Source: Triparma columacea (taxonomy: Eukaryota > Sar > Bolidophyceae > Parmales > Triparmaceae). Taken from it: 20,118 bases of DNA. The notes under the pieces are model-generated. The model was not told the DNA's origin, searched no databases, and was given only the letters and a program-made list of their open reading frames with translations. The position numbers were made by a program, and so were the translations under genes. This document shows positions 5,134-20,118 of the stretch, piece after piece (the stretch's first letter is position 1; each line of letters opens with the position of its first letter). The stretch spans positions 1 through 20,118 of the forward strand of contig BRYA01000934.1 of the NCBI GenBank assembly GCA_030267965.1, in the 5' to 3' direction.

Positions 5134-8100
5134 CTAGAAATGGGTGCGGTAGGGGCGGGGGGCTGTGCGGTCATTCTGCTCGGCCTTGACCTTGACCTTG
5201 TCTTTCATAGCGAACACGGCCGCGTTCTCCTCCTTGATGGCCTCCATCTGCTCGTCAGTGGGCCTTTCCTCGATGAACGGAAGGCGAGGGACTCTCTTAT
5301 AGTCAGTCCTGTTGAAGCACTGTGGGGGGGTTGTTTGGTTAGTTCGTTGGGGTGGGTTGGGATGGGTGGGGCAATACACAAATACACACACACATACAGT
5401 ACCTCTGTCACCATCCACGCCTCTCCTCTCCTCTCCTCGCCTCGCCTCTTTCCTCCACTCACCTCAACGCGAGCCCCTATTGTCTCATCGAACCTTCTAG
5501 AACAGACGAGAGAGTCCTCGTCCTTTTCGGACTGCTTCCACTTTCCACCGCATTCGTTGCAACGCATCATCCTGCCGTTGACGTGCAGGTCAACGGCACG
5601 GGCGACAAGAACGTCCTTGGTGCCTCCGACAATCTGATCGTTCCACCTGAAGAAGTCCTTGATCTGTTCAGCCTTCATGTTCCTATAGATCTCATAGGCC
5701 TCGAGCTCAGCGTCCTCCGCCCCTCTCTCGTGGGATATTTTCATAGCAGAAGATAGCCGAGAATCCCTCCTCTGTTGCACCGACTTGGTTACGCCGAGTT
5801 TTTGCATCTGTTCAACTATGTCGTCGACCTTGCCCTTTGCCTTGTCCTTATCCTGCACCCCCTCCTTCTCGGCCTCCTTCAGCTGGTCGTTGCTTGTGAA
5901 CTTGAACCTTTTGGGCTTGTGGGATGCTTTCATAGCAGTAGCATTGGCGAACATGTTGGTTTTCTTTTTAACCTTTGACATGTTCCACTGAGACAAATCA
6001 CTGTCAAAAGAGGTCGCATTCTCGAACATGCTCCTCATATCCGTGCATTTCGATGTGTCCCATGTAGAGAGATCGGAGTTGAAAGCCGAGCAACCTTCAA
6101 ACATGACACTCATATTCGTGCAGTTCGATGTGTTCCACGAAGAGAGATCAGAGTTGAAAGCTGAGCACCAATAGAACATGTAACTCATATTCGTGCAGTT
6201 CGATGTGTTCCATGAAGAGATGTCAGAGTTGAAAGCAGAACAACCATTAAACATGCCCTCCATATCCGTGCAGTTCGATGTGTTCCATGAAGAGATGTCA
6301 GAGTTGAAAGCAGAACAACCATTAAACATGCCCTCCATATCCGTGCAGTTCGATGTGTTCCACTTAGAGATGTCAGAGTTGAAAGCAGAGCAACCCCAAA
6401 ACATTTCATGCATATCCGTGCAGTTCGATGTGTTCCATGTAGAGAGATCGGAGTTGAAAGCCGAACAACCATTAAATGCCCAGTCCATACTCGTGACATT
6501 CGAAACGTCCCATCGACTCAGGTCCTCATTGAATTCCTCCGCTTTCCTAAAAAGCCCATGAAAACTCGTAACCTCCGACACGTCCCAGTCCGCAATCTTC
6601 CCGTACTCCTTTTCAGCTTCATCCTTATCCTCTCTCCATTCTCTAACGGCATCTTGAAGGTGATGCGAACCCTGTCTGCTGAAGTACTCGCTTTCCCAAC
6701 CCTTCCACTTCCCTCCACTCTTGAATCCCTCTCCCATCTTCATCAGCAGCACTCTCTTTATTGCTATTTCGCCTCTCTCCTTGTTGACCATGAATTCGGT
6801 GTTGTCTCTCCTCTCTTTGTGACTACCCTGACGCTCATGCTTGTTCAAAATCCAGTCGACGAATGACTGATGAACTAAGGTGTAAGTATCTTGATTTCCC
6901 TGTTGTGGGTTATCCCTATCATCATCCTTGCAGAACGCTGTTATTAAGTCAAGCGTTTGGCTCAACGCCGCCACACCGCTTGCCTTTTCAAGCACGTCAC
7001 GGGGAATAGCCTCGCGCGCTGCAACAATCACTTCTAGAACGGGGCAGACATTCTCTCTGTAATTTTTCATGTCACCTGAGAACATCTCCACGAACCTGCG
7101 CTCGTAAAACTCGTAGATTCCCCCAGGCAAGTGTTGCAAAAACTGATCTACGCTCTGATTGAGAGATATACTCCCCTTTTCGATACCATCGACAATAAAT
7201 ACAGCATAGAGAAACATGCCCTCGCTTTTTTTCACAATGGCGTCTACAAATTGCTCGAGCGGTTGGATGCTCGCCCATCCACTCTTATTCACGATATCAA
7301 GGGCCTTTAACATGGTCAATTTCTCGTCGGCAAGCACGTCGAACCCAAGCCTATCGTTGAGGTACAACCTCATGTCATCGTCGTTTTTCTCCTTATGCTC
7401 CTTCTCCTCAAGTTTCACTTTCAGGTCGACAGTCTTGGCGTCCTTGAGCGTGCTCATTACGTTACTTTGGACCCGGCTAGTCACAAGCAGCCTCGTCCAT
7501 TCCGGCCACAGAACATCCTTGCCAGCCATCTTCGCCACGAGGTCGAGAATGTTAAGGTCGTCGTTCTTCTCCTTTTTCATCAGGGCGGCCTCGTCCAAGC
7601 TGTCAATAACGATGAGTTTCACGTTGCCGTCTTTCGGCTTGTCTACCTTGCTCAGTGCGCTTAGAACATGATAGAGAAGATCATCTGGCTTCCACTTCCC
7701 AGAGAGGCGTTTAAACCCGTCGTTCAACTCCCTAGAGCCTAGGCCAGGGTTAACCCATGTATCGTTTTTGTCTCCCCATTCTTGATTTTCAAAGAAAATC
7801 TTCATGAAGCCAGCAACATTCTTGATGAGAGATATGACGAGGCCTTCAATGAACTTCCTCGGGTCCAGGTTGCTCGCTCGCTCGTTAGAGCAGAAGTGGA
7901 ATGCGATAACATCGTCTTTCATATCCTCTTCCACCAGCTGAGCTGCGAAGGCGGATTTACCAAACCCTGCGGTTGCCAAGAGCACCTGCGTACGCTCGCC
8001 ATTATTATCCTTCAACCATTCGCGAACTTCTTTAAAAAGCCAATTGCGCCCGGCGAAGCGATAAGGCTTCCTACCACCCAAGTTGCTGCTCACCCTCTTG

Positions 8101-11100
8101 CCCCGCTTTTTGTCCAGGTAACCAACATTATCCAACGAGCCGTGAAGAAAATGATGGTGGGGGTGTATGAACAAGGCGAGCGGGTTAAGATCCCTGCAGT
8201 TTGATGTGTCCCAGGAAGAGAGATCAGAGTTGAAAGAAAAGCAACTCTCAAACATGCCCTCCATACCCGTGCAGTTCGATGTGTTCCATGTAGAGATGTC
8301 TGAGTTGAAAGCCAAGCAACCATTAAACATGCTCTGCATATTCGTGCAGTTCGATGTGTCCCAAGTAGAGATGTCAGAGTTGAAAGCTGAGCAATCTTGA
8401 AACATGTAACCCATATTCGTGCAGCTCGATGTGTTCCACGTAGAGAGATCAGTAGAGAGATCAGAATTGAAAGCAGAGCAACCGCTAAACATGCTCTGCA
8501 TATTCGTGCAGTTCGAGGTGTTCCACGTAGAAATGTCAGAGTTGAAAGCAGAGCAACCCCAAAACATGCCCTCCATAGTCGTGCAGTTCGATGTGTTCCA
8601 TGAAGAGATGTCAGAGTTGAAAGCGGAGCAACCCCAAAACATGGCGTACATACTCGTGACATTCGAAACGTGCCATCGACTCAGGTCCTCATTGAATTCC
8701 CTCGCGTCCTCAAAAAGCTCATAAAAACTCGTAACCTCCGACACGTCCCAGTCCTCAATCTTGCCGTACTTCCCCTTTGCCTTGTCCTTATCTTGCACCC
8801 ACTCCTTTGCGGCCTCCTTCAGCTGGTCGTTGCTTGTGAACTTGAAGCAAGCAAGACCGAACCGGACCAACGACTGAATGTCTTTATTCGCATTTATCCA
8901 CGCCTGGATCTCCTTCGCATCCTCCCTCGAGCACGTGAATCTGTGACGTGCGAAGGAGCGAGTTGTTGCGATAGTGGTGAGGTGTGGAAAGAGGTTAGAA
9001 AACTCATGCCGGCAATGGTGGCGCATATGGCGTTACTAGAATCAGGCCTGTGATCGTCACAGCAGTAAATAACATTGCTGCTCCACCTCTCTCAATTCTC
9101 ACCTGTGCTCCAATGTCATCAGCTCAAAAGTCCCGGACGAGTGAGCGACATCTCCGTCATCATTTATCTTGATTTCCAAGGGATTTTCATGATCCTCCAA
9201 CGCGTCATTGAGGGAAGTGAGAAGCTCAATGGGAAGTTGCATGAGTATAGACCCGTATCCAATTATTTTAATTCCTCGCTCGGTTTTCAACCATTTCTTC
9301 AAATCCTCCAAATGACCATTCATTTTGTCTTTCAATTTATCTTTCTGATGTTGAGGGAGGTCTGAAAATTCAACTGTTAAAGGAAGTCTACCGTCAACGA
9401 GCGTTTCAGGGTTGGTTATCATGATGCCATCTGGTAATTTGTTGTCTTTCTTCAAAACCTCCTTGAAGAATTCCCAAACGATATTTACGACTTCGGATTC
9501 TTTCTGTCTATCACACAAGACATCACATTGAGACGGATGCACCTCTAACTTCACTCGAAGGGGATCGGTAGGATTTCCTTGTGGACTAACTGGGTTGGGT
9601 AGATCTGATCGAACAACATAACGAACGCCACTGAAAGAGACGAATCGTTTATTCGCTTTTATGCTCTTAATCCTATCATGCACTAACTGAAGACTGCGTT
9701 TTAAGGATTTCGGAATATTAAGAGCATCCACGGAATTCTCCGGATCATAGCGCTTTTGCATGAAGCACAAGTTTCCTTCTGCTTTTCCTACCGTACTCAG
9801 TTGAGCACCCAAATACTGTGCAACATGATTATCTTCTACGAAACCAATCCAGTAATTTACCCCCTTCCCGTAGAAGTTCTTACTAGATTTCCTTGGGTCT
9901 GGTTCACAATAAATTTTATTTTCATGCTCGCCTTTTTTACCGTCAACAAATCTGTACCCAACACACGCCAACAAAATATGGGCTGTCTCGCCTGTTCTAT
10001 TAGCTACCTCTGAGACAAAGTTAGACAAGACATTTTGAAGAAATTCACTAGCTTTTGGACGTGCAGCAGTTCCAGTAGAGTTCGCTGGATCATCTGTAGC
10101 TGCAAGGGCAACGTAGAAAACGTAACGCTTGCCGCTGGTGCGCATAAGTTGAATCGTTGTCGCTCCGACAATATTACCAGACGATGAACGTTTGATGATG
10201 AAGGAGAAGATATTCTTCCCGTCGAAGAAACCATCATCAAAGCCAAGATATTTCTCCTTGTATAGCTGTTTGATCTCGGCAGCCACGCCAGTGTGGTCGA
10301 TGATGTACTCACAGCAAAGGTCCTCGTTGTTGGCAGTAACCTCGTTGTTGGCAGTAATCGAATCAAATGGAAGATCATCATCCTCATTGATATCGTAGAA
10401 ATAGGACAGAGACTCACCAACTTCCGATGAAGGCTCTAAGGTCAAGGTTTCCTTGCAGCTCTTCTTACTCCTGTCATCTTTGCGGAAAAAGGCATATACC
10501 TTTTGCATCAAGTAGACTTTTGCCATGAATGCTGGCGTACTGTCCGTTCCTAACAGTTGTTGTTTTCGTTTCTTGTATGCGTCAGCTCCTATCGGACCAT
10601 ACATTTCGAGCATTTCTTCAAAAGTCTTAGGGTCATTGGTGCTGTATTCAGGAAGGCAATTTATGAGAAGAAATAGTTCGCGAAAACGGGGGAGGTGGTT
10701 AGAGTTATCATGATGTCGGCCCCATATTGGAAAGTCCGACGAAATGTGGATTGAAAGACCTGCATGGAAGCATTCCTTTGTGCGCTCAGTCTTACCTGAC
10801 TGTTTGTGCCGCTCCAGGCGGCGACTTTGTGCCAGACTTGGGGGTTGAGCCGGAAATTTGAGGTTGAGGTGGAGTTGGAGGTTGAGGTGGAGTTGGAGGT
10901 CGATATTCGTTGTTAGGCAGGTCAGGCAAGGGGTTTGTGGGCGGGCTGTTATGGCAGTGTCAGGCCATAAGCGAAGAAAAATGGAGCGTACAATGAGCGA
11001 TGAGATGCAAAAGGGTGAAAAACACAGCGTATGGGGGGTTAGTTAGTGTATTAGAGACGACAACAGATGACCTAAATGCAGATGCTCGTCTACCGAATCA

Positions 11101-11933
11101 TTCGCTAGTACGCCCAATTCTGTGCCCTTTCTCACCTATTCACGTCTTGTGGTGTTGTGCTGGTGGTGTTGCTGGTGGTGGTGTTGCTGCTGGGGGGGGG
11201 TTAGGGACGGGCCGTGATGACAAGTGTTATTAATTGGATCATGAGTGAAGAAGAGTGGGGCGTTGAAGTAAATACATCCACAACGCAAGAAGACGTTGAT
11301 TGCGAGACGATAATAGCAATCTAATTCCGGTCGCTCCTCCACAGAAGGTATCCGTTGCGCATTCAGTCTTACCTGTTTGCACCAGAAGTAACGCTTCCAG
11401 TAGCAGCGTTAGCAACACCTCCAGAAGCACCGCCAGAGCCATCGTCATTGCTGCAGCCAAGGGAAGTGCATGAGTTACAAACAGCGACGATATGCACAGG
11501 ATTTGCGAATTGTACAGTGATGTGTTAGATACGTGGAGAAGAGAATCTTAGTGCGCTCGCCCAGCAGTGTTCAGTTGTGCAGTTCTCACCTGGACCCTAG
11601 TTTAGGTTTACACCAGTTTCTGACTCGAATTTTAATGCGTTTATCTGGGGGTTCCCCCCATTTTATTGGAATATCGTTTATTCCATCCACAATCGTTTCC
11701 GCATGCCTTAGCATCCCCACAGTTCCACCAATTTCACCATTGTAAGTGTAATCTTTACCATCCCATCGAACATGTTTAGCAACAAAATCAAGGATTAGTT
11801 GTCCCTCACACTCTTCTTTTTCGTTGAAAAGGTCCCTAATACGATCAGTCGGAATCGGATAATGTCGTAAATTGTTACTCCAATGTCCAAGCGTTCCTGG
11901 TTCCTCCTTTTGCCGCACTTTCTTATCCGCCAT
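5134..11933 (-). CDS. NLR-like STAND protein: unknown N-domain, DUF285 array, NACHT ATPase, DUF285 array, PADR1-like zinc module
   Basis: Seven exons: 11933-11590, 11450-11373, 11189-11136, 10945-10796, 10641-9103, 8940-5463 and 5319-5134. All splice sites are GT-AG. The first five introns are phase 2 and the last is phase 0. Total 5829 nt, 1942 aa. Residues 1-115 are unrecognised; 115-209 form a Ser/Gly/Thr/Pro linker; 209-722 form a globular region of unknown type. DUF285 (BspA-like) array 1 spans about 754-972. The NACHT module starts near 1018 (GRNWLF), with Walker A GFGKSA (K1050), Walker B LIVIDSLDEA (D1168), LLVTSR near 1208 and a helical tail ending LVHQSFVDWIL. Array 2 spans about 1482-1726. 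The C-terminus is PADR1-like, with four cysteines at 1849, 1852, 1868 and 1882. STAND ATPases switch and oligomerise on ligand binding, so the arrays probably sense and one end signals. No signal peptide or membrane segment was seen. The ATPase and arrays are certain; joining the first four small exons is inference from phase. Confidence 0.72.
5320..5462 (-). other. Last intron of the NACHT gene
   Basis: 143-base intron with donor GAG|GTGAGT and acceptor CCCCCCACAG|TGC. An AACTAAC branch-point-like motif lies about 25 bases before the acceptor. It contains a GGCGAGG/GGAGAGG tract and a GT-repeat. Splicing restores the fourth cysteine of the zinc module as the first codon of the final exon, which supports the call. 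Confidence 0.7.
5833..5906 (-). repeat. Orphan copy of the DUF285 leader segment (74 bp)
   Basis: This 74-base piece is nearly identical (a handful of mismatches) to 8773-8846. It encodes FKFTSNDQLKEAEKEGVQDK, while the other copy encodes FKFTSNDQLKEAAKEWVQDK. At 8773-8846 the segment introduces repeat array 1; here it is followed directly by the PADR1-like module with no repeats behind it. It looks like the scar of a duplication or fusion. Confidence 0.8.
5950..6590 (-). repeat. DUF285 repeat array 2 (75-bp / 25-aa units)
   Basis: About eight to nine tandem 25-residue units with framework FNSD[IL]S.WNTSNCT.M..MF..CSA, beginning after WDVSEVTSFHGLF and decaying at the C-terminal end (MSKVKKKTNMFANATAM). 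DUF285/BspA-like repeats are known from bacterial surface lipoproteins and protist proteins and are thought to bind ligands. Units are highly similar at DNA level; 6192-6266 and 6267-6341 are identical. Confidence 0.88.
8195..8750 (-). repeat. DUF285 repeat array 1 (75-bp / 25-aa units)
   Basis: About seven to eight tandem 25-residue units with the same framework as array 2, introduced by WDVSEVTSFYELF and FNEDLSRWHVSNVTSM. The last unit degenerates into NCRDLNPLALF, after which the NACHT linker starts. One unit carries an extra STDL from a perfect 12-base duplication at 8441-8464. Confidence 0.88.
10642..11589 (-). other. Cassette-exon region of the NACHT gene
   Basis: Introns 11589-11451, 11372-11190, 11135-10946 and 10795-10642 separate three small exons of 78, 54 and 150 bases. 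All three lengths are multiples of 3 and every junction is AG|C, a phase 2 serine codon. The exons encode NDDGSGGASGGVANAATG, SNTTTSNTTSTTPQDVN and a PPTPPQPPTPPQ-rich piece. Any of them could be skipped without breaking the frame. Confidence 0.55.
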
Positions 11934-12259: not shown

Positions 12260-13540
12260 TTACTTCCCTTTCCTCACGCCCTGCAGAACGATGAACTGCA
12301 TCTTGCACATCTCAACCCTTTTGACCACCCTTAAAATCGATGGGACGTTCGTGATCTTATCCAGATTTGCATTCATGGGTAGCTTAAGAGCAACGTAGGA
12401 ACAGTTGGCACTAGCATCCAGGACGAATTTAGACATGGGTACGCCCGAAAGAGAGAGCTTGCATAGAGTTTGGTTCTTGTAATCCACGCCTCCCCAAGGA
12501 GGATCAAAAAAGATCACATCGGCGTCAATTATCGTCGGAACCACCCGAAGACTGTCGCCGATGATGACCTTTACACCAGCGAAATGTTTATCCTTGCGCT
12601 TCATCTCTGCGCGGACGAGATCAATGTTATTGCTCAACATGGTTGCCCTCTCCTCACTCATCTCTATGCCAACAACCTCCTTAAAAGCTTTTGCAAACGA
12701 TATTGTATTGCCTCCGACGCAAGCGGTCGCGTCCACTATTTTGGAAAAATATGTGACGCCAGGGAGACTGAGCAACTCGCCGGACATCCGGTCGGCAAGT
12801 CTGCAATGAATGGGCAAGCGAAAGATGAATGAGCGGAATGATTCTACAGACTAGAATACAATGCAAATATCCAGAGAACTTACCTGGATTCTGTCACTGA
12901 AAATGTTGCGACTTCATCCATCATTATCTTCCCTTGCGCGTTGTCATCTAAATTCTTCCATAGAAAGCTCCACTTATACTTTAGATTGCCTTTGCGAGCT
13001 CGAGGCGTTAGTTAAAACGATAATGTATAATGAATAGTTGGAATGGATGCGCCAATGGATTATCTTACCTGGGGCAGTTTCCAACGTCATTCCTTTGCCC
13101 ACGGACACATTTCCATATCCAGCACTGCCATCAGGAGATTTGGAGGAAGGAAGCTCACCAGCTGTTGCCTGAGAAGATGCTGAACCCTTTTTGACAATGT
13201 TGGACGCACGTGACAAGGGTTGATGAGAAGTGATCTTAGATGATGTCGTGGAGTTTCCCTGCACCGTCTCTGCTAGTGAACCATTCAACGTCTTCCCACG
13301 TAGCGACACGTCCGCGGATCCATCCTCACTCCTCGGCACAAGCTTTGCTCCTTTATACGGAACAAACCCCTGTCTAGGCTTTTCCCACACGTTCGCTTGC
13401 GTCGACGGGCAATAGTAGTAAAATTTCTTCTGAGTTCTGGACCATTCTTGATACCACAAATCACGCGGTGCTCTTGGTTGCTTAGAGGAGCGTCCAGGAT
13501 CATCTACGGGCCTTTTCCTTTTGTTATTCTGGTGGTTCAT
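12260..13540 (-). CDS. TGS1: Trimethylguanosine synthase with N-terminal WW domain
   Basis: Three exons: 13540-13069, 12989-12884 and 12800-12260. Junction phases are 1 and 2; introns are GTAAGA...GCAAAG (with TAACTAAC inside) and GTAAGT...TTGCAG. Product 372 aa. A basic KRKRP stretch sits at the N-terminus and a WW domain at about 27-57 (W29, W52, P55). Residues 160-192 (LKYKWSFLWKNLDDNAQG...FSVTES) match the segment before the TGS1 methyltransferase core. The core has the SAM motif VDATACVGGNT (215-225), IEMSEERATMLSNNI, and the catalytic-type DPPWGG (292-297; usually SPPWGG). TGS1 dimethylates the m7G cap of snRNA and snoRNA to m2,2,7G. The start at 13540 was preferred because the upstream ATG at 13582 lies inside a palindromic promoter repeat; using it would add 14 residues. 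Confidence 0.9.
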
Positions 13541-13656
13541 TAGCAATAAAATTTCCTCACTCCACCAGTTTTGACATGTCATGACATGTCATCTTCTTGA
13601 CATGTCAATTTGTACATCAAATAAGTTTTACTTCCCAACTCTAAAAAGATAACGCG
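13541..13656. promoter_or_regulatory. Bidirectional promoter with three TGACATGTCA palindromes
   Basis: The perfect 10-base palindrome TGACATGTCA occurs at 13572-13581, 13582-13591 (directly abutting) and 13598-13607. The segment lies between the divergent TGS1 and Nudix-like genes, whose start codons are only 116 bases apart. The centre-to-centre spacing is 10 and then 16 bases. Probable binding sites for a dimeric transcription factor shared by both genes; the factor is not known. Confidence 0.6.
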
Positions 13657-14862
13657 ATGTTGAGGAAGAATATACAGTCCAAAGAATCGCATACTAAGCC
13701 GCGCACCAACGGGCGTTGGCTAAAAGCGCAGCCACTAGCGCAAGTTGAAGAACAGACTTACTTGAGCCGCCGCGGCAAGGAAAATGCAAAAAAACACCGC
13801 GCCGGAACTATTCTCGCCGTTCCAACCGATGCGGCTATCGAGATCATGACAAGGACTTACTCCTCGAAGGAGGCACGCATCGAAAATTGCGAGTGCGGTG
13901 AGCTATTGGGTATCCAGACGTTGTCCCCGGCCAGCATCATGACAAAAAGTTCTTTGTACGCTATGGAACTTCCCCGCATTATGGCGAACCCGTCCTTTGC
14001 CACTTGGACAGAGGCATCCAACAACAACGGTTGGTTAGGTGTTGGCTTTAACCCCGACTTCACCGAAAGGTGGCTTACCAATCCCACTTCCGTTGAGATG
14101 GTGAGAGATGTCGTCGACACGCATCTCTTGGTAGCTGGAATTGAGGGACCAGCCGCGAAACATGGTTACCCAACGCTCGACTGCCTCGGCGCAGCAGCAT
14201 ATGGAAACATTGATCGTAGGGATTTCAAAACCTTTCAAACGTCATACCAGCCCACGCAACAGATTGATCGCAATCTTCTGGGGACCTGGAGGGGTGCTCG
14301 TCGCGAGCTACTGGAGGAAGCAGGGGTCCTTATTCCCTTCAGTTGGATCTTCGACCATGCCATCGTCAAACATTTCACCGACACGGAAGCTCCTCGCCCT
14401 TATTATCTGCGAGATTTGTCTCGTGGTTCCAACAGGCCCCCAACTGACGTTACGCAATTTACAATCGTTGTGCCCGAAGGCTATGTTTGCGTCGAGAAAA
14501 CCTCTGCGACGATGGTGATGCACCCAGAAGATGAAGATAAAGAGCTCATTCACCTCAATCGTCAGAGGAGATCGAAGATCTACATATCTTTGGAGAAGCC
14601 CTTCGCAGGTCTGATCAACAATGATATGAGGGAAATCGCCAGTGATGGCAACCTTGCGGGAAACTTCAATTTAGGAGGTCCACCCGGAGGTCCTCCACCC
14701 ACCACCACCACGCCCCCCGGCGACTCCGTTGCTGCGTCGCTCAGGGTAGCGGTGGACCTCCACCTAAAAGACGGCAGGCACGGCAGGGAGCTCGTTGAAA
14801 GGGAAGACGCCGTGGACGCCGCCAACGACCTGGCCGCCTATGATGCGGCATATAGGGCATGA
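13657..14862 (+). CDS. Nudix hydrolase-like protein with interrupted Nudix box
   Basis: Single-exon frame of 401 aa. Residues 216-224 (R-E-L-L-E-E-A-G-V) are the second half of a Nudix box (REUxEExGU), which binds Mg2+ in enzymes that cleave nucleoside diphosphates linked to another group. The preceding helix reads GTWRGAR. The glutamate normally eight residues before the R is missing there, but GNIDRRD about 30 residues upstream could be the GG-x-D-x-G-E strand and turn separated by an insertion. The basic N-terminus (first 55 residues rich in K/R) could target an organelle or nucleus. The tail carries GGPPGGPPPTTTTPP and then a charged Ala/Asp-rich helix. Start at 13657, divergent from TGS1. 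The substrate cannot be inferred; a catalytically dead Nudix fold is an alternative. Confidence 0.5.
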   Translation: MLRKNIQSKESHTKPRTNGRWLKAQPLAQVEEQTYLSRRGKENAKKHRAGTILAVPTDAAIEIMTRTYSSKEARIENCECGELLGIQTLSPASIMTKSSLYAMELPRIMANPSFATWTEASNNNGWLGVGFNPDFTERWLTNPTSVEMVRDVVDTHLLVAGIEGPAAKHGYPTLDCLGAAAYGNIDRRDFKTFQTSYQPTQQIDRNLLGTWRGARRELLEEAGVLIPFSWIFDHAIVKHFTDTEAPRPYYLRDLSRGSNRPPTDVTQFTIVVPEGYVCVEKTSATMVMHPEDEDKELIHLNRQRRSKIYISLEKPFAGLINNDMREIASDGNLAGNFNLGGPPGGPPPTTTTPPGDSVAASLRVAVDLHLKDGRHGRELVEREDAVDAANDLAAYDAAYRA

Positions 14863-15821
14863 GGCAAAAGTTCGTCTGCAACAGTCAGTGCAACCTTGAG
14901 TGTTGTTTTCGTGGATGCGGGTACTTTGGATTTGGAGGGAGGCTTTGAGATAAGGATTTTGCTCGGAAAGCGAGTAAGAGCCCAAGTGTCGTCTCAGAAC
15001 CTCCCCAGAGTTCAGACAAGCTCGATTGTTGGGAGGGGGGGGTTAGGAAATAGGTTGAAGCAAGAGATGGGTCTTGCATTAAGGGCATAGCGAGGAGGAA
15101 GGGTGAAGATGAAGGCAGACGAGACATCAAATAAGGAGGGCTTTGCAATGCCAAATTAGCAAATGTCACCAATATCCCCCCCAGTCCACAGTCGGAACCA
15201 GGCTTCAAACCCCTTGAGAAATATTTTCTGGTCAAGTTCGCGCTCTACCATGGACAATGTGCCTGTATCGGCGTCTATTCCCCCCCATTCTTCCTCGCCC
15301 AACGTGCATCGCACAGGGGGGGGGCTCAAGAGACCTCAGACTTGTCCTCGGGTTGTAGAATTCAATTGTTGGCCTCTTTGTCACTGTAGCAAGAAATCGG
15401 CGTCATAAGGCTGCTTATTGCCCTTGTTGTATATACAATGCGATATTAAGCATGAAATCCATTATTTATGTACCGTATTAAGTTTATATCAGCCAAAATC
15501 TGTTACGAGCAAACCAGTTAGTCTTTATTTTGGGATTTTGGGGGAAGATTTGGGCATTTTTGGCAAGAAAGCTGTATTATAACCTGTAATATAGGCTTAT
15601 TATACTTTTTACGACCGACCTAACTCTTCACAATACAAACCGCGATACTCACATCATATCCAAACACATTGTAGTTTTAGCTTAAATTGGTCCCTAACAA
15701 AACTACATCGGTCCAAATCCCTAACTTCCAATCCCCTCCTCTCCATCTAAGCATTTACGCCATATCTAAGCACAAGCGCTGTCAGTACTATTACTTTCAT
15801 CCTTCCCAAATCCTTCCCAAA
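14863..15821. other. Long stretch without a convincing gene
   Basis: About 960 bases. Open frames here are short and low in complexity (for example a minus-strand Ser/Leu/Pro-rich frame over 14885-15235 and a plus frame from 15250 reading MDNVPVSASIPPHSSS). None resembles a known family and none has a clear splice partner. Two runs of seven or more G/C occur near 15038 and 15320. The last 400 bases are AT-rich with TATAA-like stretches around 15570-15610, and probably hold the promoter and 5' UTR of the LRR gene. Confidence 0.4.
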
Positions 15822-17300
15822 ATGCCCAAATCAGCAGTATACTCTGGCAAAGAGAGATTCCATTGTGATCGTGAACTCACAGAGGTGATTTTTGCAAAGG
15901 GAGTGACGTCGATTGTCGATGGCGCCTTCTGGGGATGCTCCTCCCTCGCAGCCATCACAATCCCGGAAGGAGTTACGGAGATTGGCATTAAGGCCTTCGA
16001 CGGATGCTCTGCCCTTACGGCCATCACCATCCCAGATTTAGTGACGACGATTTCCACTGGCGCCTTCTTGGGATGCTCCTCCCTCACGACCATCAGCATC
16101 CCGGACTCTGTGACGAAGATTGACCATGGCGCCTTCAGGGGATGCTCTTCCCTCGTAGCCCTCACCATCCCGGACTCTGTGACGACGATTGCTTCATTCG
16201 CCTTCTACCAATGCTCCTCCCTCACGGCCATCACCATCCCGAACGGAGTGACGATCATTAGCGAATACGTCTTCTCCAATTGCCGCAACCTCGCAGCCAT
16301 CACAATCCCGGACTCTGTGATGACGATTGGCCGTGCTGCCTTCGACTACTGCTCCTCCCTCACGGCCATCACAATCCCAGACTTGGTGACCAAGCTTCCT
16401 TATGGCGCCTTCTACGGATGCTCCTCCGTCACAGCCATCACAATCCCGGACTCTGTGACTACGATTGGCAATAGCGCCTTCTACGGATGCTCCTCCCTCG
16501 CAGCAATCACAATCCCAGACGGAGTGACAACGATTGGCGAAAGCGCCTTCTTGGGATGCTCCTCCGTCACAGCCATCACAATCCCGGACTCTGTGACTAC
16601 GATTGGCAATAAGGCCTTCTACGGATGCTCCTCCGTCACGGCCATCACAATCCCAGATGGAGTGACAACAATTGGCAAATCCGTCTTCGCGGGATGCTCC
16701 TCCCTCGCAGCCATCACAATCCCGGACTCAGTGACGACGATTGGCCATGGTGCCTTCTCTGGATGCTCCTCCCTCATTGCCATCACAATCCCAGACGGAG
16801 TGACGAAGATTGGCGAATATGCCTTTGACGGATGCTCCTCCCTCACGGCTATCACAATCCCAGACAGAGTGACGACAATTGCCTGGGGCGCCTTCAGGGG
16901 ATGCTCCTCCCTCGCAGCCATCACCATCCCGGACTCAGTGACGATGATCGGCGATTTCGCCTTCTACGAATGCTCCTCCCTAACGAAACTCAGTCTATCT
17001 CCTGCTGTCTCCATCGGTGAAGAGTGCTTCTCAAACTGCACAGCTCTAATCTCTGCCGCTGCTGATCAAAATATGTCGACTGTTGAGGACCTCCTCCATT
17101 CTAGGTGGCACCGCATACGTGAACGCGTCACCGTTCTACTCTGCCTCAAGGGAACCTGGGATCACGTGGAGAACCACCCCAGTGGACAGGATAGTCTGAA
17201 GCAGAAGAAAATGGACGGAGTTGAAGCACCGCTAATGGCAACTGAGACACGTGAGAAGATCCCGAAAGTTTTGTGGAGAGTAATTCTGGAGTTTCTGTAA
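15822..17300 (+). CDS. BspA-type leucine-rich repeat (LRR_5) protein
   Basis: 492 aa from the ATG at 15822 (MPKSAVYSGKERF). An in-frame ATG at 15687 would add 45 residues without recognisable features, so the shorter form is preferred. Residues from about 28 to 410 consist of 17 tandem 23-aa units with framework VTTIG..AF.GCSSL.AITIPD, the LRR_5 (BspA-like) consensus, forming a curved solenoid. The last units lose the consensus (LTKLSLSPAVSIGEECFSNC). The C-terminus is a charged region with a final KIPKVLWRVILEFL helix resembling the ends of other algal LRR_5 proteins as I recall them. No signal peptide or membrane anchor is visible, so a cytosolic or nuclear binding role is likely; the ligand is unknown. 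It is convergent with the zinc-finger gene. Confidence 0.88.
   Translation: MPKSAVYSGKERFHCDRELTEVIFAKGVTSIVDGAFWGCSSLAAITIPEGVTEIGIKAFDGCSALTAITIPDLVTTISTGAFLGCSSLTTISIPDSVTKIDHGAFRGCSSLVALTIPDSVTTIASFAFYQCSSLTAITIPNGVTIISEYVFSNCRNLAAITIPDSVMTIGRAAFDYCSSLTAITIPDLVTKLPYGAFYGCSSVTAITIPDSVTTIGNSAFYGCSSLAAITIPDGVTTIGESAFLGCSSVTAITIPDSVTTIGNKAFYGCSSVTAITIPDGVTTIGKSVFAGCSSLAAITIPDSVTTIGHGAFSGCSSLIAITIPDGVTKIGEYAFDGCSSLTAITIPDRVTTIAWGAFRGCSSLAAITIPDSVTMIGDFAFYECSSLTKLSLSPAVSIGEECFSNCTALISAAADQNMSTVEDLLHSRWHRIRERVTVLLCLKGTWDHVENHPSGQDSLKQKKMDGVEAPLMATETREKIPKVLWRVILEFL
15900..17045 (+). repeat. 69-bp tandem repeat array encoding LRR_5 units
   Basis: About 17 head-to-tail 69-base units (GCCATCACAATCCCGGACTC is a recurring piece) with high DNA identity between neighbours. 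Variation concentrates on the codons after ATTGG and on the residue before GCTCC. Confidence 0.88.
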
Positions 17301-17559: not shown

Positions 17560-18543
17560 TCAACGTTCTTTGTGACGACAAGAAATGTGTTTCTTCATGT
17601 TGTGTTTCTCCTTGCACTTATATTCGCACCCCTCTATCGGGCATGGGTGCCAGGTTACGCCGATATCGTGGATATTAGCAAGGTGATGCTTGATGCCCTG
17701 GTTATCCTTCGCCTTATATTCACACCCCTCTTGGGGGCACGGGTGCCAAACTACGCCAATGCCGTGAAAATGAGCAAGGTGGGTCTTGATTTCGCTCCTC
17801 TGCTTCGCTTTATATTCACACCCTTCTTGCGGGCATTTATGCCACGTTACGCCGATATCGTGAATAAGGGCAAGGTGCCTCTTGATATCACCTCTCGCCT
17901 TCGCCTTATATTCACAACCCTCTTGTGGGCATGTGTGCCACGTTACGCCTATATCATGAACGTAAATAAGGTGTAACTTGATGTTGGCTCTCCCCTTCGC
18001 CTTAAATTCACACCCTTCTTGCGGGCATGTATGCCACGTTACGCCAATATCGTGAACATTAGCAAGGTGGTGCTTGAGGTTGCCTCTGTGCTTCGTCTTA
18101 TATTCACACCCTTGTTGCAGGCATGGATGCCACGTTATGCCAATATCGTGAATACCAGCAAGGTGCTGCTTGAGACCGTCTCTCTTTTTCGCTTTATATT
18201 CACACCCTTCTTGCGGGCATGTATGCCAAGTTACACCAATATCGTGAATATTAGCAAGATGTTTCTTCATTTCATTTCTCTGCTTCGCCTTATATTCACA
18301 CCCTTGTTGCGGGCATGTATGCCATGTTACGCCAATATCGTGAATATCTGCAAGGTGCTGCTTGAGATGGCTCCTCCTCTTCACCTTATAATCACATCCT
18401 TCTTGCGGGCATGTAAACCATATTGTGCTTTTCGTTTCACATGGTTGGCAAAGAAGCAGATCATGCTGTACTGGGAAACTGATATTAGGCGCAAATTTGT
18501 CGATATGCGACCTCAGCTCCTCGCTGGGCACCGGAGCAAACAT
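17560..18543 (-). CDS. Nine-finger C2H2 zinc-finger protein
   Basis: Single exon, 327 aa. After a 45-residue N-terminus (MFAPVPSEELRSHIDKFAPN...) come nine near-identical 32-residue units of the form C-x4-C-x12-H-x4-H, with linker DIGVTWHT between fingers in place of the classical TGEKP. The framework CPQEGCEYKAK.R..[IL]K.HLA.IH is almost invariant. The helix positions that contact DNA in known C2H2 proteins (-1, 2, 3, 6) differ between the fingers. Probable sequence-specific nucleic-acid binding protein. Start at 18543; a TATATAG stretch (minus strand, 18649-18643) lies about 100 bases upstream. The gene sits only 157 bases from the stop of the Kir-like gene on the same strand. No effector domain is visible. 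Confidence 0.85.
   Translation of the reverse strand: MFAPVPSEELRSHIDKFAPNISFPVQHDLLLCQPCETKSTIWFTCPQEGCDYKVKRRSHLKQHLADIHDIGVTWHTCPQQGCEYKAKQRNEMKKHLANIHDIGVTWHTCPQEGCEYKAKKRDGLKQHLAGIHDIGITWHPCLQQGCEYKTKHRGNLKHHLANVHDIGVTWHTCPQEGCEFKAKGRANIKLHLIYVHDIGVTWHTCPQEGCEYKAKARGDIKRHLALIHDIGVTWHKCPQEGCEYKAKQRSEIKTHLAHFHGIGVVWHPCPQEGCEYKAKDNQGIKHHLANIHDIGVTWHPCPIEGCEYKCKEKHNMKKHISCRHKER
17570..18430 (-). repeat. 96-bp tandem repeat array encoding C2H2 fingers
   Basis: Nine 96-base units in tandem, with TATTCACACCC and GGGCATG..TGCCA recurring on the plus strand. DNA conservation outside the helix codons is high, pointing to recent duplication or gene conversion. Confidence 0.85.
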
Positions 18544-18621
18544 CAGCTCGCGTTTTTGTCTACAAATCAGATCCCAAGAGTTTCCCCCTCTTTTCGCTCT
18601 TTCGCTTCTGGCCTTCTGGCC

Positions 18622-18644
18622 CTCTCACGTCCGACTTGGACTCT
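18622..18644 (-). promoter_or_regulatory. Shared 23-bp element upstream of zinc-finger gene
   Basis: Plus-strand core CTCTCACGTCCGACTTGG. It is identical except for one base to 19923-19945, which lies upstream of the neighbouring Kir-like gene in the same orientation. It is 79-101 bases before the ATG at 18543 and directly follows the TATATAG stretch, so it would lie close to the transcription start. Confidence 0.55.
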
Positions 18645-18700: not shown

Positions 18701-19807
18701 TTAATCTACTTTTGCGCCCTCCTTAAACCCCGCAAAATCAATTACCATTCTGCGGTCCGCGCCGGGATCGTTACTTCCAAAGCTTTTGTAGCAGTCAGAG
18801 GCCTTGCCAATAACGACGTCCGACTCATTTTTAAAGCTGTACACTTTTTGACAGTCCACTTGCCCACCTATGGTAGGATTATCCGCAATCGCCCAGACCG
18901 ACAGGGCGCTCATACCTTTGATCGCCTTCACCTTGTCGAGCGTGAGTTTGTCTAGGGGATTTTCGATGTTGTGTGGACTGTCTTTTTCGAGCATTTGATA
19001 CAGCGGAGAGTCTTCGTCGACAACGTGTGTGAAAGTCATAGGAGCGTAGCACCACACGCCTTGCGGGTCGATCTTCATTTCTTTAAAAACAATAGCCCCT
19101 TCCCCCTCGTCTGTTTTAATGCTCAGCCGCCACCAGGCTTTTACGTGCAAGTTCACCGTGGCCCTCCCGAACTTATGCGTTATACGGAACCGGACGACCG
19201 GTTTCCCGTTCCTTGGTGCAATCACGCACTTGTCAGCCAGGACCATCTCATGCTGCGGCGGCCTGAGCACACGCTGGCACACGAGCCCGAACACGATTGC
19301 CTGCACAATCAGCCCAACATACCCGCTGACAGACACCGACAAAACGCAGAGCGGCTTGTCCCGGACATCGTCTTCAGTCAGCAGGTGGTTCCCGATCAAA
19401 CCCCCCACTGCCAGGACCACGTAGTTGAGCAGCATCATTTCGTTTGGATCTGATTGATCTAGATCATGGCATTTCAGCGCGTATTTGTTCAGCAACCCAA
19501 AGAGAAGGCCGATGAACATGAGCATGAAGAATGGCCATATCAGCAATGCGCGCATATCCATAAACATTACCATGTAAAGGAACCGCGAGAAAAGCGGCTC
19601 CCGCTCCGATTGATTCACCAACTTCACCGGGTAGGGGGTGCGCATCCTCTCGAAGGGAGGCATGTCCGATGCGCGATCCCGAACTGCGGTTCCCGGTATG
19701 AACTGCGAAATAAGACACTCGAACCAGCTCATTATCGGTCGATGTTTACTCTTCTCCTTCGTAAAGGTGCCCTTAATCTGGGACGTCGCGGCGATTTTTA
19801 CCGCCAT
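18701..19807 (-). CDS. Inward-rectifier potassium channel-like (Kir) protein with non-canonical filter
   Basis: Single exon, 368 aa. The plan follows Kir channels: a cytosolic N-terminus with an amphipathic segment (FSRFLYMVMFMD), TM1 at about 86-107, a pore region at about 120-150, TM2 at about 153-177 ending in QRVLRPP, then the cytosolic immunoglobulin-like domain. That domain begins ADKCVIAPRNGKPVVRFRI and contains THVVDEDSPLYQML and a late YSFKNESDVVIG strand. Kir proteins form tetrameric K+ channels gated by ligands at the cytosolic domain. The signature TxGYG is absent: the pore segment reads AVGGLIGNH (133-141). It may therefore not select K+, may need a partner subunit, or may act only as a sensor. 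Start at 19807; a second ATG at residue 26 is possible. Confidence 0.75.
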   Translation of the reverse strand: MAVKIAATSQIKGTFTKEKSKHRPIMSWFECLISQFIPGTAVRDRASDMPPFERMRTPYPVKLVNQSEREPLFSRFLYMVMFMDMRALLIWPFFMLMFIGLLFGLLNKYALKCHDLDQSDPNEMMLLNYVVLAVGGLIGNHLLTEDDVRDKPLCVLSVSVSGYVGLIVQAIVFGLVCQRVLRPPQHEMVLADKCVIAPRNGKPVVRFRITHKFGRATVNLHVKAWWRLSIKTDEGEGAIVFKEMKIDPQGVWCYAPMTFTHVVDEDSPLYQMLEKDSPHNIENPLDKLTLDKVKAIKGMSALSVWAIADNPTIGGQVDCQKVYSFKNESDVVIGKASDCYKSFGSNDPGADRRMVIDFAGFKEGAKVD

Positions 19808-20118
19808 CCCTGGGGCGTTTGGCCACGGGGGGTATTAGGATTTTCCGATCTCAGAAGTTTGACCAAAAGGGAAAAATTCATAATGATACCCAGGTAAAAT
19901 AATGGCATTTTTGCTCTCCCTACTCTCACGTCCGACTTGGTCTCTGGATTTCTCTCCAGTGCAACTCTTCTCCACGCGCAGGCGTGGACGTTCTCTGCGC
20001 CAAAGTGCACTGGAATACCAACGGAGACTGCTTTTACCACGGAATGATTGATGTTGACATGAAGAAGTAATCTGTTGGATGTTTCATTACCAATCACACA
20101 GCGATGCATTTTAATTAT
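19808..20118 (-). promoter_or_regulatory. Upstream region of the Kir-like gene
   Basis: Holds the second copy of the 23-bp shared element (19923-19945, 116-138 bases before the ATG) and a nested inverted repeat at 19956-20013. A minus-strand open frame across 20109-19798 overlaps the Kir start in another frame; it shows no family resemblance and is not called. Confidence 0.45.
19956..20013. repeat. Nested inverted repeat
   Basis: The outer arms CCAGTGCA (19956-19963) and TGCACTGG (20006-20013) match perfectly, as do the inner arms CCACGC (19972-19977) and GCGTGG (19982-19987) with a 4-base loop. It could form a stem-loop or bind a dimeric protein; it lies just upstream of the shared 23-bp element. 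Confidence 0.5.

Follow-up and report, generated by a model that had tools for sequence, protein, structure and literature searches.

A candidate NLR-like STAND gene of Triparma columacea with DUF285 repeat arrays on both sides of its NACHT-type switch

The window analysed here (the whole stretch of DNA, 20,118 nucleotides) comes from Triparma columacea (Parmales), a minute marine alga bearing silica plates. Its minus strand carries a gene whose product, as read from the sequence, is an NLR-like STAND protein with a class of repeat, DUF285, for which no link to NACHT was found in the literature searched. We call it NLR-like because of its switch, its structural neighbours, its relatives and its hypervariable repeats, and consider it fairly probable that it belongs to a small Parmales family and was remodelled by fusions of DUF285 cassettes.

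Results

The minus-strand frame is free of stops from 9032 to 5208, that is, over 1275 codons, which at the base composition of the window has a chance of about 10^-29.5. Exon 8940-5463, stop-free throughout, encodes in this order DUF285 array 1, a P-loop switch of NACHT type, DUF285 array 2 and a module with a weak resemblance to PADR1, the last of which runs past the exon, across a good intron, into the next one. The uninterrupted 3.5-kb exon of the original prediction is thereby borne out, as are (by Pfam and the open frame) its DUF285 arrays on both sides of the switch in one exon and, for intron 9102-8941, its in-phase upstream joining. The features are as follows:

9103..10759, minus strand: upstream N-domain exon (open frame 11042-9102; start at about 10759 placed by eye, AG acceptor)
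9102-8941, minus strand: intron GTGAGA...CACAG, GT-AG, in phase, also in the published model
8196..8846, minus strand: DUF285/PARCEL array 1, N-cap FKFTSNDQLKEAAKEW... and seven 25-aa units (caps compared by eye)
8194..8742, minus strand: published 'intron' over array 1 (549 nt, a multiple of three, stop-free, donor GTCGGA)
6660..8195, minus strand: NACHT-type STAND switch (Pfam, structure model, fold searches)
8045-7473, minus strand: NPHP3_N P-loop, 37.9 bits (cut-off 24.8)
7403-7149, minus strand: TANC1-like lid, 26.0 bits (below the cut-off of 29.1)
7055-6834, minus strand: winged helix (HTH_TANC1), 18.4 bits (below the cut-off of 27)
5910..6659, minus strand: complete DUF285/PARCEL array 2, with the family's own N-cap, eight 25-aa units and C-cap ...ATAMKASHKPK
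5927..6517, minus strand: published 'intron' over array 2 (591 nt, a multiple of three, stop-free, donor GTCGAT, acceptor AAAG)
5829..5909, minus strand: third N-cap fragment (RFKFTSNDQLKEAEKEGVQDKDKAKGK), from comparison with other caps by eye
5748..5828, minus strand: segment VDDIVEQMQKLG...RLSS, also found ahead of the kinase domain in kinase-DUF285 loci C650 and C203
5134..5717, minus strand: PADR1-like module in two exon parts, 5717-5463 and 5319-5134, with its stop at 5136-5134
5462-5320, minus strand: intron with donor GTGAGT, GT-AG, in phase, also in the published model

Coding scores, from a training set of 2911 codons to which the switch of the paralogue contributed, were 0.27 for the PADR1-like tail, 0.19 for the switch and near zero for the arrays. 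Separate genes joined by a chance open frame were considered and rejected because of the frame length, the coding score and the phase.

The deposited model TrCOL_g11261 (887 aa) equals the window gene minus both arrays, taken as introns, and minus most of the N-domain exon; if its splicing were right, the protein would be almost devoid of the DUF285 repeat. We hold this to be very improbable, the deposited model itself being the point in its favour. Both cuts keep the frame and contain no stop, and their donors are poor compared with those of the two introns accepted above; moreover, the array is retained in the deposited paralogue TrCOL_g3997 and in the relative P0005, and the available text of PMC10328945 describes an annotation of T. 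columacea by BRAKER2 on proteins alone, after soft-masking and with no RNA for the species. We judge both published array 'introns' to be annotation artefacts. In one of our repeat computations their ends were approximate (549 and 594 nt).

A complete NACHT module had been predicted; the switch lies at 6660..8195. All the motifs quoted for it are present (GFGKSA at 7967-7950, LIVIDSLDEA at 7616-7587, LVTSR at 7487-7473 and LVHQSFVDWIL at 6878-6846), the G, G, K and S columns of Walker A and the I, D, D, E and A columns of Walker B, with its acidic pair, are invariant in eight sequences, and NPHP3_N is over its cut-off. The lid and winged helix score below theirs, and the window was absent from the matches of Pfam's NACHT family proper, PF05729, both at E 1e-3 and up to E 1. 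PF05729 is over its cut-off in the relative P0007 (30.0 bits, cut-off 26.7), and so is the HTH_TANC1 winged helix in paralogue L005 (29.0 bits) and in P0008 (32.8 bits). Between the switch and that of L005 we obtained an omega of 0.14 at a dS of 2.35, which is near saturation. Structure searches from the model, in which the 'pdb_via' rows cover Foldseek's own 1000 candidates, returned Avs3 and plant and animal NLRs as fold neighbours (9-19% identity in the listed rows), the top rows being tied with non-immune AAA+ proteins. Confidence in the model is middling, with a mean pLDDT of 59.7; array 2 forms a regular solenoid and array 1 stays below 50, its unfolded appearance perhaps reflecting the different N-domains that other rows align there. 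Membership of the window switch in the NACHT clade of STAND NTPases is supported.

The DUF285 assignment covers five stretches (Pfam, E 7.9e-158), and the tandem 25-aa units score 516.6 bits with PF03382 (cut-off 25) and 247.3 bits with TIGR02167 (cut-off 30). Unlike most sampled arrays, array 1 has its last unit broken off mid-unit and lacks a C-cap, the caps being compared by eye. Array 2 has the same position and caps in P0005 and P0006, and represents C-terminal superstructure-forming repeats that are not LRRs in the strict sense.

The assembly of T. columacea holds at least two NACHT-DUF285 genes. The switch is common to the five closest relatives (P0005-P0009), three of which have DUF285 after it (a full array in P0005 and P0006, and an array start, below the cut-off, in P0007), while P0008 and P0009 have ankyrin repeats there. 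None of the five shows an array before the switch, P0008 being a partial protein; the P0006 model starts with the switch exon, and visual inspection of the reading frames over 5.2 kb upstream of it revealed none. These relatives do not show DUF285-NACHT-DUF285 to be a conserved order. The N-terminus of P0008 has CHAT (PF12770) as its best family (14.9 bits, below the cut-off of 24, E 0.018), and P0007 and P0009 align with P0008 over this part; that of P0005, for which Pfam gave nothing fitting, might at most be HEPN-like.

The tail is, to judge from its parts, of mixed origin. Its VDDIVEQMQKLG...RLSS segment matches C650 and C203 (loci L043 and L044) at 76% over 35 and 67% over 27 residues. 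Continuation of the frame into a PADR1-like zinc module had been predicted; the frame indeed continues over an in-phase intron, but the resemblance is weak (PADR1_N 17.4 bits, below the cut-off of 25.7; PARP1 at E 0.025 against the PDB), the module is split by the intron, and zinc ribbon PF08063 was not found at the locus. Relatives of the module occur in P0012 (83% over 44% of the query) and P0013 (63% over 28%), the last tail exon passing into other sequence in the latter, and no second copy was found in the genome of T. columacea.

These findings bear on a narrower reading, in which the functional gene would be NACHT-DUF285 with array 2 only, and array 1, the N-domain exon and the tail would be parts of neighbours, without any second-sensor role, brought in by recent fusion or by an assembly join inside the repeats, or in early decay. 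It fits with arrays that stand only after the switch in relatives, with an array 1 that stops mid-unit, with a tail piece shared with kinase genes and with a last exon that differs onward in P0013; besides, assembly joins are possible because the array units of the window are as near to those of other loci as to one another. Against it, the 1275 codons are open through all junctions with both introns in phase, the tail does not fall behind the switch in coding score, and the deposited protein spans switch to tail, though it comes from the same assembly. We consider the narrower reading unlikely, albeit of some weight. On the preferred one, of a family member remodelled by cassette fusions, array 2 is likely the family sensor, whereas fusion within this lineage would appear to account for array 1 and for the PADR1-like tail.

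The repeat survey covered the reading frames of L006-L033, 28 loci on 17 contigs, several of them overlapping, together with some 1.5 kb of flanking sequence; the repeat search gave 195 matches in total, and the details concern those among the matches listed. A typed DNA pattern for the repeat had 0 matches. By eye, 10 of the 17 contigs show a kinase-like stretch, with Pfam run on one (C650); arrays are thus joined to a NACHT-type switch or to kinases by Pfam in the window, L005 and C650 and by eye on nine more contigs. The 25-residue units are nearly invariant save for four hypervariable positions (15, 16, 19 and 20), picked after the table was seen, where pN is 0.58 versus an overall pS of 0.25. 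This comes from 138 units, whose pairs are non-independent, fitting a pattern with positions 1, 5, 13, 15, 16, 19, 20 and 22 free and most others fixed, units outside it being dropped uncounted. It is a property of the sampled DUF285 units at large, which are mostly on non-NACHT genes. Since the repeats carry such positions, a 'recognition' role for those of the window is reasonable.

Alternatively, DUF285 might be a rigid scaffold, or an adhesive or ice-interacting solenoid, spread as a cassette and variable for reasons unrelated to ligand recognition. According to the available text of PMC11992049, diatoms and other phytoplankton of high latitudes are rich in genes and transcripts of DUF285, whose solenoid is compared there with antifreeze proteins; T. 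columacea comes from the Sea of Okhotsk (PMC10328945, available text), and PARCEL elements are widespread (PMC2996958, available text). This explanation has against it that the arrays are attached to kinases and to a NACHT-type switch, and that the excess of amino-acid change is mainly confined to four positions per unit. A regular ice-binding face would have no need for change so concentrated by position, and we regard the explanation as improbable.

The N-domain exon has a frame of 647 codons without stop, whose coding score is the highest of the six frames and low in absolute terms. No homologue was found in the same genome or among 7996 scored database candidates, and profile searches, Pfam included, gave no match to known domains. 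A GNAT-like order of strands and helices in its single-sequence fold was dismissed as worthless because the pLDDT was 35, which makes the fold unusable.

Discussion

Taking the gene as an NLR-like family member remodelled by DUF285 cassettes, for its expression, splicing, ligand, oligomerisation and output we infer the following. At rest, the NACHT/winged-helix core would hold bound nucleotide. A ligand would be bound by the array 2 solenoid, at the four hypervariable residues in every one of its 25-residue units, upon which the core would exchange nucleotide and oligomerise, gathering the N-terminal parts into a signal. Repeats would be kept homogeneous genome-wide while their hypervariable positions diversify, as in the repeats of fungal NLRs. 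In T. columacea, DUF285 cassettes common in its kinase genes would have been fused in frame, array 1 directly in front of the switch, and the PADR1-like tail, together with a segment of kinase type, at the end of the gene. The 'two independent recognition surfaces' and the possible immune role of the original prediction are likewise inferred.

Fungal NLRs, in the available text of PMC4986451, have highly conserved WD, ANK or TPR repeats with a few diversifying positions, and reshuffled effector and repeat domains. The window gene resembles them in its NACHT-type switch, in superstructure repeats kept alike save for a few positions and in the reshuffling. In contrast, its repeat is DUF285/PARCEL, one array precedes the switch, and the likeness within its arrays (67% and 73%) falls short of the 85% line used for the fungal repeats. 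The 25-aa repeat, the tandem arrays and the opposite-strand open frames are shared with the PARCEL/DUF285 proteins of PMC2996958, which in its available text are ORFs without assigned function and membrane-targeted proteins, and from whose text the word NACHT is absent.

Bacterial TIR-NPHP3_N STAND proteins (79 loci; P0010, P0011) have a like NPHP3_N switch and TANC1-like winged helix, at 21-32% identity to the window, with repeats that include WD40. In the 44 of the 79 ORFs scanned with Pfam, chosen by size and length, we found NPHP3_N in 44, TIR_2 in 36, HTH_TANC1 in 32 and WD40 in 17; the DUF285 motif was in none of the 79 loci within the stretches covered. A midpoint-rooted tree was made of 53 sequences (the window, seven proteins and 45 of the 79 bacterial loci, a motif or length filter leaving out 34). 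The cores of Avs3 and of plant and animal NLRs are alike in the fold of the switch but differ at the identity given above and in their sensor and effector domains. PADLOC defence models gave none at E 0.01 with the window protein. A viral origin of the switch was discarded, 512 pattern matches in the viral_contigs scan yielding 0 confirmed relatives.

The literature searched held no paper that by its title deals with NLR-type receptors in stramenopile algae, diatoms included. The window gene may be part of a sensing system of algae that is still unexplored. It provides a concrete candidate for an NLR-type family in Parmales, the sister group of diatoms, and a repeat, hypervariable at some positions, as its candidate sensor; for DUF285, which is widespread and of unknown function, it suggests a role that can be tested. 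Repeat masking can strip the arrays from gene models, a likely reason for such genes being overlooked. A bolder and rather doubtful proposal is that Parmales have an intracellular non-self recognition in which an LRR-like, hypervariable DUF285 cassette, kept homogeneous across the genome even as its contact positions diversify, would be shared by NACHT receptors and kinases, the front cassette of the window gene being a second sensor or an integrated decoy of DUF285 proteins encoded by giant viruses of stramenopile algae. The kinase-DUF285 genes of Triparma (C650, C203, C102 and others) have cassettes, caps and a tail segment of 27-35 residues like those of the window gene, with a protein kinase where the latter has NACHT; for the N-terminus of C203, the matches were no better than E 0.05 with MLKL_N and E 0.1 with RPW8.

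Structure and annotation of the NACHT-DUF285 gene

The sequence is the complete contig C671 (20,118 bases) of the 37.85 Mb assembly of the parmalean alga T. columacea. Its minus strand carries a frame of 1275 open codons (9032-5208), a run expected by chance with a probability of about 10^-29.5 at the base composition of the window. This single frame holds two DUF285 arrays and the NPHP3_N switch, which confirms the predicted DUF285-NACHT-DUF285 order in one uninterrupted exon, and the upstream exon proposed to join it in phase does so through the intron 9102-8941. The predicted PADR1 tail is present as a module that spans the intron 5462-5320, but its likeness to PADR1 is weak.

Features of the gene and of its published model
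Further upstream exon, minus strand, joined in phase via intron 9102-8941: without known domain
Array 1, minus strand, first part of frame 9032-5208: N-cap followed by seven DUF285 units, of which the final one is truncated in mid-unit
Switch, minus strand, between the two arrays: P-loop module of NPHP3_N type, then a TANC1-like lid and winged helix
Array 2, minus strand, after the switch, end at 5910: complete DUF285 cassette of eight units
Cap fragment, minus strand, after array 2: piece of another DUF285 N-cap
Kinase-shared segment, minus strand, after the cap fragment: short stretch that also occurs in kinase genes
PADR1-like module, minus strand, spanning intron 5462-5320, stop at 5134: weak PADR1 resemblance
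Published model P0004, minus strand, exons 9242-9103, 8940-8743, 8193-6518, 5926-5463 and 5319-5134: both arrays excluded as introns

The published protein P0004 ('hypothetical protein TrCOL_g11261 [Triparma columacea]') maps to the minus strand of the window and is 100% identical in the NACHT region. Its array "introns" (549 and 591 nt) are both multiples of three and, since they lie inside the open frame, free of stops; they start with GTCGGA and GTCGAT, whereas the accepted introns start with GTGAGA and GTGAGT. According to the genome publication (PMC10328945), repeats of T. columacea were soft-masked first, and BRAKER2 then annotated the genes from protein hints alone. Moreover, the arrays are retained in the deposited paralogue TrCOL_g3997 (P0006) and in protein P0005. 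Considering the masked, protein-only annotation, the stop-free cuts in whole codons, the odd donors and these two proteins, the omission of the arrays from P0004 is most likely an annotation artefact, and the gene would then expose a blind spot of annotation. For TrCOL_g11261 the protein database names a contig 22,137 bases long, as against 20,118 in the window, and some of the original record may be absent.

Relatives of the switch

A protein search with residues 285-800 scored 7990 candidates, of which eight matched at E 1e-3, one of them being the gene itself. Among the closest relatives, P0005 and P0006 bear a DUF285 array downstream of the switch, P0007 shows the beginning of one (20.6 bits, below the cut-off), and P0008 (T. 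retinervis, partial) and P0009 carry ankyrin repeats. The last three have an N-terminal domain in common, for which CHAT was the best Pfam match in P0008 (E 0.018, below the cut-off). In these proteins a CHAT-like N-terminus (Pfam scan of P0008 alone) is combined with a NACHT-type switch and with repeats of the ankyrin or DUF285 kind; their motifs SLTVIAHG and LNGCCT are reminiscent of a caspase-fold protease. In the tree, the window gene and P0005-P0009 formed one clade (support 1.0) with the four DUF285 members nested in it (0.88). Outside it were bacterial STAND proteins from 79 loci, none of which (0/79) had the DUF285 motif; the 44 ORFs scanned contained NPHP3_N (44/44), TIR_2 (36/44), HTH_TANC1 (32/44) and WD40 (17/44).

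Within the T. columacea assembly, the NACHT-region query from P0001 matched only the window and contig C398 (36 of 309 candidates scored). At the paralogue locus (L005/L045), a kinase-like frame of 478 aa, below the Pkinase cut-off (25.1 against 31.7 bits), lies just upstream of the NACHT exon and may belong to the same gene. Comparison of the switch core with the paralogue gave an omega of 0.14 over 473 codons, with dS near saturation; this purifying selection argues that the core is in use, now or recently. The switch plus array 2 is compatible with an NLR-like sensor. Array 1, the most striking feature, and the tail are each joined in frame to the rest of the gene, but array 1 had no counterpart in any relative compared. 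The PADR1-like part has different neighbours in the environmental relatives P0012 and P0013, and no second copy was found in the T. columacea assembly. Because array 1 was seen in no relative and the PADR1-like part has other neighbours elsewhere, the two recognition surfaces of the original prediction would rest on a single locus in a single assembly.

Literature searches found no paper containing both DUF285 and NACHT and, for NACHT, stramenopile and NLR, no paper about such a family, judged by title. DUF285 is thus a candidate new sensor repeat of NACHT proteins, from a lineage that has received little study, and it bears a signal of selection.

Hypervariable positions in the repeat unit

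Across 138 units, positions 15, 16, 19 and 20 were the most variable (entropies 3.45, 3.23, 3.77 and 2.19 bits), followed by position 13 (1.97 bits). At these four positions, picked after viewing the entropy table, pN was 0.582 and overall pS was 0.250 (pS at the same positions, 0.339); the values were 0.525 against 0.263 (0.258) for the 16 NACHT-linked units and 0.555 against 0.311 (0.275) for the ten window units. The unit-collecting pattern fixed most other positions and lowered their pN, leaving the pN of the four, and the pS, unaffected. None of 200 unit bootstraps in each of the three sets gave a hypervariable pN equal to or below the overall pS. The structure model of array 2 shows recurring strands at unit positions 7, 13 and 23-24, and the hypervariable residues lie between 13 and 23. 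Concerted evolution plus diversifying selection is described for NLR repeats in a fungal study (PMC4986451).

DUF285 cassettes across the genome

DUF285 is frequent in the T. columacea genome (195 matches), and the same search gave no match in 14 control genomes. Of loci read on 17 contigs, those on ten have arrays after kinase-like sequence (by eye; by Pfam for C650), and the remainder show LRR-like, coiled or unclear sequence before the arrays within short flanks. Most arrays start with FKFTSNDQLKEAAKEW...DWDVSEVTSF and end with NATSFDSDLSQW...ATAMKASHKPK, and such capped cassettes at times stand two or three in tandem. Both caps are present in array 2, the N-cap in a variant specific to the family. 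In array 1 only the first is present, and the unfinished last unit passes directly into the beginning of the switch, a stretch that in relatives reads ...LARLHPQ..FLYG. Six units of array 1 and six of array 2 agreed with each other in 78% of bases, and with units of other loci in up to 81% on average, so that the two arrays are no closer to each other than either is to other loci.

Arrays also precede another repeat domain on C270 (L022/L033), where three cassettes are followed by an ankyrin-like segment (by eye). Kinase-DUF285 genes were seen on C203 (L044, 799-1578) and C650 (L043, 922-3102); the N-terminus on C203 bears a faint likeness to MLKL_N (E 0.05) and to RPW8 (E 0.1), and that on C650 is alike by eye. 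A four-helix domain followed by a kinase and hypervariable repeats is a possible architecture for this type.

Other genes in the window

The minus-strand frames 12260-12850 and 12974-13588 include an RNA cap guanine-N2 methyltransferase (Methyltransf_15, E 1.3e-20); the frame upstream of the match resembles a WW domain by eye. On the plus strand, a 405-aa frame (13645-14862) had no Pfam match at E 0.1 and includes GTWRGARRELLEEAG, Nudix box-like by eye; it is followed by a BspA-type LRR_5 frame of 539 aa (15681-17300, E 6e-142), which also has long antisense open frames. By eye, about nine fingers make up a C2H2 zinc-finger array (17560-18624, minus strand), which likewise has long open frames opposite it (140 and 233 aa), and the C-terminal domain of an inward-rectifier potassium channel (IRK_C, E 5e-7) lies at 18701-19834 on the minus strand.
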